In this document: piece by piece, positions 3,689 through 54,236 of the stretch
Numbering within the stretch: the stretch's first letter is position 1
Layout: each line of letters opens with the position of its first letter
NCBI GenBank assembly: GCA_963921825.1
Contig: OY997594.1
Span: 4,903,001 to 4,967,000, forward strand
DNA: 64,000 nt
From: Erodium maritimum
Taxonomy: Eukaryota; Streptophyta; Magnoliopsida; Geraniales; Geraniaceae
Direction: 5' to 3'
Notes under the pieces: model-generated
Told to the model about the DNA's origin: nothing
The model's input: only the letters and a program-made list of their open reading frames with translations
Database searches by the model: none
Program-made: the position numbers and the translations under genes

Positions 3689-4492
3689 TTTGTTATATGT
3701 CTTAGTATAAACTTCTCCAAATTTTACACAAATTAGATCTGTTCAACTTGACGGGTTAATTAGTTTGAGCTGCAAAATGTCGAACTTGCCCTCTCATCGA
3801 ATACTCACGAGTTTCTTAGCTTCTAAAGTACCATTCTTAAGTCGTTTAAACGAAAGAACCTAACCATTTTCCCTCTTTTCAAACCAAGTTCGTGTCAAAA
3901 CTTGACTTATACCCTCTCTACTTCTTCTCTGACCTATCCAAGAAGAAGACCTAATCAGAAATGGCAAGATAATGGTTTGAAACCAAAAGTTATCTTTTTT
4001 CAAATATTTTTAATTAAAGCGCAAAACTAGATATATATTTTTCAAGGGAAACTTCAAGACATTCTTCTACCATCTTCGCTAAATATAACTAACAATTTAA
4101 GGAGAAGAAAAAACGCAAATCCAACCCACAACTTAAAAAAGGTTTAATGACCCAAACTGCTTCACTTGGAACATCAGGATCTCGATTTGCTTGAACCCGA
4201 AATCTTTCCCTGAAATATATAACAGAATATTGAATTATTAGTAATTCTGATAACATTTATTAGTAACTGAAAAAATACATTTGGATCAATAATTAAGACC
4301 AAAGCTATTTATTTCACTTTTCTATCATCCAAATATAAGCTACAGCTATCAGCGCTTCTCATGACTAATTATAGGCTACAGTTATCAGAGCTTCTCTTCT
4401 TAATCAGTTAAGAATCCAAGTTAAGTGCTGAAAAGAAAGATGAGCTTAATAAAGAATGAAATTAAGATTGGGCAGCTGTATTATTTTCCTAC
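3689..4492. other. AT-rich region downstream of the ALBA gene
   Basis: No coding-like frame is visible. Around 4260-4420 two short stretches (CTACAGCTATCAGCGCTTCTC and CTACAGTTATCAGAGCTTCTC-like words) form an imperfect direct repeat about 60 bases apart. The ALBA 3' untranslated region ends somewhere beyond the MITE at 4502-4745. Confidence 0.4.
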
Positions 4493-39134: not shown

Positions 39135-40920
39135 ATTTCGAATAGATGGTTGCAGATAACCTAACATAAGGTGTTTTCTGAATAGGATGGTGGATGAGTT
39201 GGAGGGCTTGATTTCACTTGTTATGTCTATCCTGTAAGGACGAGTTCAAGAGATAAAGTTATTGATGTTAGATTTAGAGAGGAGTTTTGAGGATTTGATT
39301 TCACTTGTCTATCCTGAAAGGAAAAGTTCAGAGTTAGGATCAGTTCACCAGAATGTAATATGAGGAGTTTTTAATAGGTCGATCTATGAACGGGCACCTT
39401 TTTCTGCCTATCCTCCTCAAGAAGAGCTCGGGTTACGGTTATTGATGTTAGATTTAAAGTCGTTCAATACATTTTAAGATGATTACTCGATAAACCTCAA
39501 TTTTAAATTTAGACTTGTATTTTACACCTTATATGGATGATAATTTTGTGCCAGAGGCCTGCCTTAATTTGAATCATAAGTTCACATGTTAATCAGATAT
39601 TTGTTTCTTGTTATTGATAGATATTATAATTATTAAGGGTATCTTTGTTTCCGTTTTTTTGTTCTTGTATCTGAAAAATCTGATGCTGCGACGGGTCTAC
39701 TGTCCGGTTCGTTCTATTATCAATTTGGGGAGATAAGCTTGATATAATCTTTGTTACCCAACCATTGAGTGGTTCAAGTGACAATTACCACACATGGAAC
39801 TCAAAGTCTATCTTGTACTTCTCACCCCCTTGATTCAGTAGTTCTTCAGGTAGCAACGTTTCCTCATTATCACTATCCATCACCACTCCCCTCAATTTTT
39901 CCTAAATCTCGTCCATACTCCTTATTAACCTTGCTTCTCTCTGTTCGAAAAACGACAGTCACCACCTAACCGGACCTCTCTTGCGTCTGTTTGAAAATGG
40001 CGGTAGAGGGTTTTATTTTTGTGGATGTTGCTTCATCGGGGATAGAGAAGAGATCATCACGACAGGGAATGCTGGTCGGTCGAGGTCGGGCCAAGGAGAG
40101 GCGAAGCGGACTGGTTGTCGGTCCACGACCGTGAGTAACGAGGAGGGTAGTACCGACTCCATCACTACTATCGTTGTTCAGGGAGACGGAGTCAGGGGCC
40201 TCCGGTCATGCTCCATCCGCAACGTCCTGGGGGTGGACGGGGGTGGTAATGGAGGGTGAAGCCCTTCTAAGGGGATGGTGGGACGGGGAGGCTCCGATGG
40301 AATCCCACCCATGATCGAGTGTGTATCCTTCGCTCTACAACGATCGGGGGATCGTAGACATGAACGACTTGGACAAATGGCAGGAGCATGCCTAATCACT
40401 ATACCAAAAAGGCGCATCAGCGACTGAATAAAAATATTGGTCGCTGTTGAAAATTTCAATCGCTATTAGTGGTGTCGTTGGCCCCATTGAGGAAGGTCTC
40501 CGTGATAGGGTACAGGCGACGTGGACGGTGAGAGTTTTGCAGTTGGGAGAGGATGTTCAACAGAGACCATGGAAGGAGTAGAGGCGTTAGGACAATGCAT
40601 CAGGCGCTTAGCGATTCGGGAGGTTGTTATCCCGCCCATAGATATTTGTGGGCGATGGCCTGAATTTTGTGTATACCTTGGCAGCTAGGGTTTTGACTTC
40701 GAGAACGTTCCCTTAATAGGTGCTAGAGGATTGGTTGTCAAAGATTTGGAGGATGTCGAACATTGTGTCCCGGCCCCTGAAAAATAGTACTGTGGACTTC
40801 TTCTTCCAGACGGCCAGGTGAGAGCATGAATCCTTGCCGGGAAGACATGTGCATTTCAAAATCAAAATAATTAACAAGTCCATAAAACCCCTTGTTAACA
40901 CGCTAAAATTTTAAAATCAT
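39135..40920. other. Repetitive sequence with a GC-rich core, no gene called
   Basis: The 39135-39480 part is the interrupted host of the LINE. Phrases in it such as GATTTCACTTGT and GTTATTGATGTTAGATTTA recur at about 39210-39290 and 39440, so it is internally repetitive. Words at 39750-39810 (GAGTGGTTCAAGTGACAATTA, AACTCAAAGTCTATC) recur near 42565 and 50630-50690. The 39980-40660 core is GC-rich with no recognised protein. Confidence 0.4.
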
Positions 40921-50925: not shown

Positions 50926-50943
50926 AAAATCTTTCATATTTTA

Positions 50944-53333
50944 TTTTTTGATCGAAAATAGAGATATTATAACTTTAAAATATTCGTAAAACTGCCAACA
51001 CTTGAGTACAGAAATGAAACTACAATGGAATTGGAAAAACAAGAACTCAATATTAAATTTGCTCTTGGACATAGAGGTTGATTGGACAGGAGAACTGCGG
51101 TAGCATTCGTGGACACCGATACAGCATAAGCCAACCACATGGCACTGATCGAGCAGATCTAGTGTGAATCTTTGTAGAGGTGGACTGATAACTCCCCCGG
51201 GATGTCAGCGTGCGTCGTCCTCCCTTGACTGATACTTGTAGGGCTCCTAAACGCGGGAGTGCTGACCCCGAACTGGCAGGGAAGAACCTTGTCGGCTTTT
51301 GGTGGAACCGTTGCCACCTTACATCCAGAGAGGCGGTACAACCGACGGATCTCTCCCTGGACCCCTGAGGACTCATTTATGGAGGCGAGGGTGCTTATAG
51401 CCCCCCGCCGCTACATGTGACACTCCATCTGATCCGGTAGAGCCCTCTGACTCCTCTGGTTCCCCTTCTCTTTCTAACCTCTTCTTCCCAGAAACCGTTG
51501 TGGTAGGTTCCCTGGGAATCCAGGCCTCGGGATCGACCTCCAACTAGTCTCCAATCCAGTTTCCTTGCATCATCCTCTCGCCTTGTTTCGGTTGGTATTA
51601 CAACGAGGGGTTATTGGCGCGAATTCCCGTACTGCCACCCCCGACGATCCGCCCACATAGGCCCAATTCGTCCCCAAAATGGCTTTCCCATGTTTTGCCT
51701 TTTCCAACGCCGACCTCGGATCTGCTGGAGACCTCAAAGATGCCCCTTGTTCCGTCATTCACCGGGCAAGCTGGGAATAAATGTCCCGCACAACTACAAC
51801 CAAAACAATGATCTGGCAGGTGTTCATACGACACATGCAGTAGGATGCGTACTTGGGATTCCGTGGGTCGGAACCAAAGTTGGCTCTGAAGCGGTACTCG
51901 TATGTCCATCCGAACTCTGATACGCATGAAATCTCCCCAACAGAGGCCTTCTGCGTCCACATCTACCGCCTGACAGACTCCTAGAGCATTTCACAATCTG
52001 AAGCCCACCTCCCTGTTCCAAGCTCCTACCGGAAGGTTGGACACCCGAGCCCACACCGCAAACTGGGTAAACACCAGGTCTTCCGGTCTCATGTGCGTCC
52101 TCAGGTCCGTGATCAACACCAACGAGTCCCAGAAGGCCCAAGGCTCCCCCATCATCACCCTCGCTCTCTCTCGGTCCATTCGAAAGAAGAACGCCATTAG
52201 TCCATCCTCGAGCGGCCTTGCTTCCACCTTCATGGCCCACGGGTCCTCCAGCCTATCCACCATGGATTTTCAATAGAACTTCCTGGTCGTTAGCACTTTG
52301 GCTGCGAGTGCATACGAGAAATTTGGTCCCCGACCCGTCAACTCCATCAGAGGGACTATAACTTCCCTGATTCGCATCGGTCCCATCCTGTATCGCAGAT
52401 CCCCCATGGGCCCTCCATGACCTGAATAGGCCTACTGACCTGATCCAGACCCGACGCGTTGATTGAAGCCCCTTGGAATGGCAACCGGACCGGAGCCCCG
52501 ACCCGCGACCCCTTCCTTTGGGCCCGGGCCCCAGATACGACCCGGCCCATCGTCCTCTGGCCCAGCCTTACCCAGCCCGTCTGCCCTCCTTGGGCCGTGC
52601 CAGCCCTTGGGCCCGTTCCCCATGCCCGACGCGCATCTGCTATTAGGCCTCGGCCCATGCCCAGGCCTAGCTCCCCCCTCGGCTCCATGGAAACCCTAAG
52701 GGGTTCCTTCCCCTTCCTTCGACGCCACGCCACCGCCTCTGTCGTCTCCCGCGACGTCGTGGCCGTGTCCGACGAGATTGCCACCAGCACCTCTGCCCCA
52801 CCAGTCACCGACAACTTCTCGACCCCCGCTCCACCTTCCTTCTGCACCTCAAACTCCGCAGTCCATCAGAACGTCGAACCGTCTTCCTCTTTGCCTGGTG
52901 TCGCCCGAGTAAGCTTGCGACCCACCCGTGGTCTCGGCCCTAACGCCGGAGTGCGGCGTAGGATGCCCCGTGCCATGGCCTGAGACCATCGCCCCGCGCC
53001 TCCACCACCCCGTTCTCCATCATAGTTGCAGAGAACGTTAGGCCTGTCGCTTCAATTCCGGCACCACCCACACGAGGTGTCAACGAAAACGGTTCCTTGA
53101 GGGACTCCTCCCAAGACGAGACGACCCTCGCCGGTGAGCCACCTCCGCTATCGACCTCCGCCCGGATTCCGGGCTGCTTGGTTCCCGTAGAAGCTCTACG
53201 TCGAACCTACCATCACCTTCTGACAACTCCGCCGTTGACGTTGCCATCGTAACTACCGTACAGAGAGAAAATCGTAAAACTCATAGAGACCCTAGGGTTA
53301 GGGTTTTGGGCTCTGCGTCTAGTTGTTATGCTC
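50944..53333 (-). mobile_element. ORF1-only L1-type retroposon with 14-bp target duplication
   Basis: The flank TCTTTCATATTTTA is exact at 50930-50943 and 53334-53347. On the minus strand the insert ends TTTTCGATCAAAAAA at the left edge. The 2390-bp body encodes an L1 ORF1 (DUF4283 plus zinc knuckle) but no endonuclease or reverse transcriptase, and it runs from ORF1 straight to the tail. That layout, with an intact target duplication, means the element inserted without ORF2. It parallels mammalian half-LINEs (HAL1) and gives an identity clue for the other RT-less retroposons in the window. Confidence 0.83.
51598..53247 (-). pseudogene. L1 ORF1 remnant: DUF4283 and CCHC zinc knuckle
   Basis: From an ATG at 53247 the minus strand reads MATSTAELSEGDGRFDVELL and then a Gly/Arg/Pro-rich stretch to about 52350 with stops and shifts. 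The DUF4283 part follows at about 52330-51990: LAAKVLTTRKFY, FFRMDRERARVMMGEPWAFW, FTQFAVWARVSNLPVGAWN. The knuckle part is at 51960-51598: GDFMRIRVRMDIRVPL, VSYEHLPDHCFGCSCAGHLF and ACP (C-x2-C-x4-H-x4-C). DUF4283 proteins of this type are the RNA-binding first ORF of plant L1 LINEs. Several in-frame stops and a frameshift near 51980 make it non-functional. Confidence 0.82.
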
Positions 53334-54236
53334 TCTTTCATATTTTATAAATTATGGTTAACTTTGTAAAAAAAAAAAAAAAACTCTTATTTATAAGTTG
53401 GCCACTTAAAATTAATGACCCAAGCAGCCTTTCGCTGACTTTAAATTTACCAAGTTGGTTATATTAGTCAAGGAAGCAATCCTTTAAATACAGCCAGATT
53501 TATTTTTATTATAAAATTAAATAAGTGTATGTACTTTAATTATGATTGCTTACATTATAAATTAAATTAAATGTGATGTTTTATACACATCCATTTTTTT
53601 AACAATAAAGGCATCCATGTTGAATATACATGTCACGATTCAATTTCAGTGAACCGAACTCGGGACGCGAACATTTAAAATAATAAACACTTTGAAACTT
53701 TTTCCATTAAATCACTTTAAAATACCAATTTAATTCAACAAAAAAATAATTACAACTCAAAATAAAACGTCCCACAAGCGGACAAAATGCGAGGTATTCG
53801 TCGCTAGACTAAAAGTAACGCGGACTCCCACCCCTAGCTCTTCAAGCTTCGGAAGCTCACCTAGTCCGACCTGCGACAAGTACCTGTAGGAAAAGCAGCT
53901 AGGGGTGAGCGTTCGCTCACCACCACGGATAACAGACTGACTACGACATAATTAGCAGACAAAGCCGGTAACACCCCATACGACCCAAAACCGGGAATAC
54001 AATCCCCAAACTCAAGTAACTCAAATGACACACCACTCGTTACTTTCCTCAACAGATTCAACACCCGATAACGTAATGTAAACCCGACACAACTATCGAC
54101 GACCTCCCCCAAAGACACGACATAACGACTACGCAACGCCAAACAAGATCACAAAGGATCGCACACCAAACAAGATCACAAAGGATCGCATTCCTGTTGC
54201 TCGGTAACCTCCCTCACGCCCTTTACCAATCTCAAT

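Follow-up and report, generated by a model that had tools for sequence, protein, structure and literature searches.

An ORF1-only LINE clan in the Erodium maritimum genome with a probable HAL1-like way of working

The window analysed here, a stretch of 64,000 bp of the Erodium maritimum genome, contains the insertion of a LINE that carries ORF1 and no ORF2, an observation that we confirmed. This copy is a dead, decayed insertion of a large, old clan. The clan is very probably a lineage of non-autonomous plant LINEs that encode ORF1p only, with a DUF4283 domain and a probable zinc knuckle, and that work in a HAL1-like way. As in elements of the HAL1 type, ORF1 occurs without ORF2, many insertions have the same junction together with duplications, and ORF1 has been under selection. 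Since ORF2 is lacking, the clan must borrow its copying enzyme from other elements, and mobilisation in trans by the ORF2p of an L1 would meet this need.

The insertion lies on the minus strand (Table 1). Its flanking direct duplication, predicted to be exact over 14 bp, is indeed exact, over 15 bp. The 3' region ends in ATAATATCTCTATTTTCGATC followed by five A's; an A tail is thus present as predicted, with the A-rich appearance due in part to the adjoining A-rich duplication, the tail proper being merely those five A's. When the pieces of the window ORF1 were compared with Pfam, the predicted DUF4283 domain was recovered (E 1.5e-10) over the cut-off of 27.2 bits, and the predicted CCHC knuckle was found in the expected place with a match to zf-CCHC_4 (E 6.4e-06) slightly below the cut-off of 27 bits. 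P0001 behaved alike, with 44.4 bits for DUF4283 (above the cut-off of 27.2) and 22.6 bits for zf-CCHC_4 (E 8.5e-05; below the cut-off of 27), again in the expected place. The window ORF1 is interrupted by stops and frameshifts, and retains the conserved C-terminus of the family, GGYKHPRLHK followed by a stop. From there it passes straight into the 3' module with no ORF2 between, in agreement with the predicted absence of endonuclease (EN) and reverse transcriptase (RT). Elsewhere in the window, another DUF4283-like stretch (40603-40818, plus strand; 35% over 72 amino acids) is probably what remains of the ORF1 of a different LINE.

Table 1 Parts of the ORF1-only LINE insertion, in window positions
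Feature	Position	Strand	Remarks
Whole ORF1-only LINE insert, 2,389 bp	50945..53333	-	Bounded by the duplication; 5' end at 53333, 3' end at 50945
Target-site duplication, 3' side of element	50930..50944	.	Exact 15-bp repeat, TCTTTCATATTTTAT on the plus strand
Target-site duplication, 5' side of element	53334..53348	.	Exact 15-bp repeat TCTTTCATATTTTAT
Short 5' leader, contains AACCCTAACCCTAGGG	53248..53333	-	Like 5' starts in several copies
ORF1, broken in the window copy	51373..53247	-	ATG at 53247; family stop TGA at 51373-51375, right after GGYKHPRLHK; frame-specific low dN/dS across copies
DUF4283 domain (part)	51997..52230	-	PF14111, 41.3 bits
CCHC zinc knuckle	51763..51909	-	PF14392, 26.1 bits (cut-off 27)
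Shared 3' module (last ORF1 codons and 3' region taken as non-coding)	50945..51413	-	
24-base core TCAAGGGAGGACGACGCACGCTGA of the 3' module	51205-51228	-	
A tail proper	50945-50949	-	Five A's

When the whole element was searched against the window's own genome (763 Mb in 40 contigs), 40 scored places yielded 49 matches, and 20 copies were then fetched. Two relatives were near full length, at 90% (query 29-2389) and 88% (query 14-2389), with nearly the same limits; many further copies without ORF2 were found at 72-79%, together with shorter ones. Several fetched copies have the 5' start, the junction between ORF1 and the 3' region, and the 3' terminus in common. The own-genome search proposed with the original prediction therefore found many independent copies of one layout. 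A 26-mer from the 3' end (≤2 mismatches) occurs at 56 places, and the 24-base core of the 3' module at 3,983, with 0 control matches in either case; the latter figure counts modules rather than full-length elements, and for both sequences a part of the places was inspected. The core ranks with the most strongly conserved parts of the module, being present within 3 mismatches in 51 of 52 modules.

The junction was examined using an unbroken ORF1 piece of one copy (L023) that extends into the 3' module; first-look candidates numbered 16,510, of which 101 loci were scored. These loci include the query itself, some copies from the earlier fetch and three that seem to be in tandem, and the reach of the query into the module favours module-bearing loci among them. 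Contiguous alignment across the junction, to residue 386 or beyond, was seen at 93 of the 101 loci. Four ended at the ORF1 stop, and their downstream DNA had the module directly behind it in every case; in the remaining four, a second match (324-411) lay roughly as far away as it would in an element lacking ORF2. An ORF2 separating knuckle and tail, named beforehand as the finding that would speak for a single deleted LINE, was present at 0 of the 101 scored ORF1 loci, 25 of which lie in open frames of at least 600 amino acids. The absence of ORF2 covers these scored loci; because they are only 101 of the 16,510 candidates, unsplit copies may exist at lower ranks. At G000:C5:57937351-57942545, three equal-scoring ORF1 copies spaced 1,996 bp apart seemingly form a tandem array of the ORF1-only element.

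In a second search, the query was confined to the ORF1 part and left the module out; 120 of 12,290 loci were scored. The module was demonstrated at 31 of the 120, a figure based on comparison with 38 of the 101 places from the junction search and with the 100 core matches listed first; the other 89 are open as to what comes after ORF1, which counts against the preferred explanation. On C1 below 54.8 Mb, the exact core lay downstream of 7 of 17 ORF1 loci, where about 35% would be expected if all had the module (by our own arithmetic). Using tBLASTn with four ORF2 pieces (E 1e-3), we found no match in 67 of 68 fetched clan loci, while all 29 positive controls matched. The module was found in 59 of the 68 loci, with a median of 577 bp visible upstream of it; for 17 loci (L059-L075), the fetched DNA comprised the upstream stretch and only some 100 bases from the beginning of the module, and nine of these had a module below threshold. 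The sole match, to RNase H at L097 (24.6% over 114 amino acids), lies ~380 bp before a 5'-truncated tail and is probably a neighbouring element; no duplication was found around it. L035 and L049, where a module lies near an ORF2, were outside the 68 loci.

Target-site duplications were sought at 13 copies, including the window copy and four derivatives that have only the N-terminal part of ORF1, with scores of at least 10 counted. As a control, the 3' flank of one copy was paired with the 5' flank of another (156 mismatched pairings). Duplications were found at 9 of the 13 copies compared with 4 of the 156 pairings, and thus are not due to chance as a set. They were present at six of nine ORF1-bearing copies and three of four N-terminal-only derivatives, the window duplication having the top score of all 13. 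In this search, L014, L024 and L027 had no duplication and L021 scored 9.

At many loci, the 3' module of the clan stands behind other 5' parts, some of them with the N-terminal part of ORF1 only. Shortened elements that join the module to a 5' or N-terminal ORF1 part (L025-L028, L066, L068, L077, L090-L092, L095, L098) differ in their deletion points. Since three N-terminal-only members (L025, L026, L028) have duplications with scores of at least 10, clan elements are mobile without the region of DUF4283 and the knuckle. ORF1p is therefore not strictly needed in cis, which is a further point against the preferred explanation.

Frame-specific constraint was evident in both parts of ORF1. The DUF4283-CCHC part had a median dN/dS of 0.394 in frame among copies (136 pairs), as opposed to 1.04 and 1.01 in the shifted frames, and the N-terminal part had 0.49 in frame and 0.92 and 1.09 in the shifted frames. 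Between subfamily A (the window copy, L009, L010 and L011) and subfamily B (L014, L017-L020, L023 and L024), dN/dS was 0.19 (28 pairs) at a dS of 1.26, which is near saturation; the two sets were chosen after the alignments had been viewed, with six copies (L012, L013, L015, L016, L021, L022) left out. Values within the subfamilies were higher (0.56 in A, 0.50 in B), as expected because copies decay after insertion. ORF1 has thus been under purifying selection in the source elements, and the inserted copies have decayed. The junction is the same in A and B, which is most simply explained if ORF2 had already been lost when ORF1 was under selection. The subfamilies are 85-88% alike in the 3' module and 59-71% alike in the first 900 bp, which suggests that the module is either constrained or exchanged between lineages. 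If it was exchanged, the direct junction could be younger than the split between A and B. This potential exchange, and the post hoc choice of A and B at near-saturated dS, both weigh against the preferred explanation.

We considered several identities for the 3' module. A SINE, which would have a polymerase III promoter derived from a small RNA and no coding capacity, or a captured RNA was rejected: Rfam had no match for 50930-53348 up to an E of 1, and ORF1 is coding. An ORF2 remnant or other coding region was rejected because the 137-amino-acid open frame that the module has in L012 had no Pfam match and because, over 210 pairs with no more than 58 codons, no frame clearly stands out (dN/dS of 0.72, 0.97 and 0.69). 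RNAalifold gave little energy for an alignment of 52 modules and thus no sign of a conserved RNA structure overall. One stretch of 150 columns reached -7.3 kcal/mol (z -7.7, the next being z -2.8, under column shuffles that do not keep dinucleotides), where a real hairpin is possible. A search of a plasmid collection gave no match.

A model of the DUF4283 and knuckle region was generated with AlphaFold2 from 8 sequences and is of modest to poor confidence (mean pLDDT 60.4); in its first half, we read the order of strands and helices as that of an RRM. The best Foldseek matches were tandem-RRM proteins such as hnRNP A1 and NONO (E about 2e-4 to 1e-3), with low TM-scores of 0.2-0.4. These results hint that the ORF1p of the clan may bind RNA. 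On this basis, a cycle can be proposed in which clan elements would be transcribed by polymerase II and then translated into ORF1p, which would probably bind its own RNA, as its domains, the low-confidence RRM-like model and the purifying selection suggest. An L1 ORF2p would supply reverse transcription and integration in trans, by target-primed reverse transcription at the poly(A) end; we infer this because the elements have target-site duplications and A-rich tails but neither EN nor RT. The source elements would have kept ORF1 over a long time while the inserted copies decayed.

Two kinds of ORF2-bearing L1 were seen in the same genome, either of which could mobilise the clan: two-ORF elements (L103 and L104) and elements that consist of a leader and ORF2. 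L103 and L104 have an ORF1 with DUF4283 and a zinc knuckle in addition to ORF2, and a 701-bp query across the ORF1-ORF2 junction of L104 found four other copies at 99% over its whole length. Young two-ORF L1s are therefore present in the genome, and these could act as helper of the clan. In a finer form of the preferred explanation, the clan would be a HAL1-like parasite of L1s of the L104 type, with the leader-and-ORF2 lineage unrelated to it. The existence of young L1s with a DUF4283 ORF1 agrees with this form, as do the A tails in which L104 and most fetched L1s end, like the clan. However, the ORF1 of the clan is only 30-32% identical to those of L103 and L104 over about 200 amino acids, and no part of either element matched the 3' module. 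We regard this form as a tentative possibility, somewhat short of an even chance. More generally, only a loose poly(A)-signal-like end, judged by eye, is common to the clan and the L1s, and no helper was identified by common 3' sequence, which also counts against the preferred explanation as a whole.

We read the leader-and-ORF2 lineage as an ORF2-only L1. In the copy examined (L105:1969-3999 with L035, C5:56.09 Mb), a leader of ~460 bp with stops in all frames is followed by an open ORF2 with EN, RT, zf-RVT and RNase H, and there is no ORF1. Its ORF2 is 39-40% identical to those of L103 and L104. On the basis of an RNase H 30-mer (≤2 mismatches), the lineage accounts for 25 of the 30 best zf-RVT loci fetched; the 30-mer occurs at 519 places in the genome and a leader 25-mer at 20. 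L110-L114 are further loci of this lineage without ORF1. The presence of both lineages raises the prospect of a split LINE, in which the ORF1-only clan and the ORF2-only L1 would be mutually dependent halves, complementing each other in trans like a multipartite genome; the halves would be separately transcribed and separately inserted, and we consider this reading possible but unlikely.

In its favour, a leader search with 40 scored loci found that the query's own locus and 19 copies start at a common boundary (query 655-688) and run into ORF2, with no match upstream of query 652. However, 20 of the 40 loci start later, five of them with a separate leader match (65-70% alike); because the full leader is unmatched in these 20, the absence of ORF1 is seen directly only where the 5' end is seen. 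Duplications at six ORF2-only copies, scored without a chance control, were clear at two (17/17 and 12/12), but weak at two (9/9, four of the nine letters being tail A's) and absent at two; at L113/L054, which had none, the A run used was probably not the L1 tail. The 17/17 copy has about 36 extra bases between the duplication and the leader. Also in favour, ORF2 dN/dS had medians of 0.08-0.28 over four dS bins, in a set that included five loci without the RNase H 30-mer and was biased to intact copies because the best HMM matches had been taken. Furthermore, no sequence common to the ORF1-only and ORF2-only elements was found at the 5' or 3' end. Finally, with young two-ORF L1s in the genome as well, each half can do without the other.

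At 2 of the 30 fetched ORF2 loci (L035:2785-3160, minus strand; L049:89-632, plus strand), the 3' module of the clan lies antisense beyond the L1 tail by about 80-240 bp. With about 4,000 modules, some chance L1 neighbours are expected, but the placing is alike at both loci.

Under another reading, L1 would have copied a domesticated ORF1 host gene, and the clan would consist of the resulting processed pseudogenes. This would agree with the purifying selection on ORF1 and the lack of ORF2, as well as with the A tails and the duplications. However, subfamilies at dS >1, ~4,000 modules, many long open frames and like 5' starts favour a mobile lineage with many sources, and we consider a host gene very improbable. 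A single LINE that lost its ORF2 by deletion after insertion, an explanation that would suffice for the layout of a single copy, is ruled out by the same junction in all 101 scored loci.

The preferred reading, a non-autonomous clan with a HAL1-like way of working, sets these elements apart from known plant L1s. Of the features of the plant L1 clade, the DUF4283 domain in ORF1 is present, and the accompanying ORF2 with its EN and RT is absent. According to PMC11288735, Celine of poplar has a DUF4283 ORF1 and, like the clan, an A tail and a target-site duplication. L103 and L104 likewise resemble the clan in an ORF1 with DUF4283 and a zinc knuckle, the latter scoring slightly below the cut-off in the clan. 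Celine, L103 and L104 all carry ORF2, whereas the clan does not. Almost all L1s of flowering plants end in poly(A), as stated in PMC3747384. Among the matches listed from the open-access literature, with subscription journals and Repbase lying outside, neither an ORF1-only LINE nor an ORF2-only L1 from a plant appeared. In powdery mildew, the EKA family is, like the clan, derived from a LINE ORF1 and has more than a thousand copies; as described in PMC4641428, it is fungal and consists of truncated retrotransposon copies co-opted as effectors. The clan, in contrast, is a lineage of ORF1-only elements whose junction is fixed.

If our reading is correct, plants, like mammals, have evolved elements that shed ORF2 and retained a selected ORF1, and ORF1p itself would therefore give an advantage worth keeping. 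Together with the ORF1-less L1 of the same genome, these natural single-ORF elements make the role of a plant DUF4283 ORF1p, in cis or in trans, testable. Mammalian HAL1 descends from mammalian L1 and has an ORF1 of the coiled-coil/RRM/CTD type. The clan belongs to another L1 lineage and another kingdom, and with its plant-type ORF1 (DUF4283 and CCHC) it is not the mammalian HAL1 family proper. It further differs in a 3' module common to diverged subfamilies and in many nested shorter derivatives. The predicted plant counterpart of HAL1 thus holds for layout and probable way of working and not for homology as a family. HAL1, which encodes ORF1p only and arose several times in mammals according to PMC5753468, is like the clan in being LINE-derived, with ORF1p alone, no ORF2 and a non-autonomous way of life.
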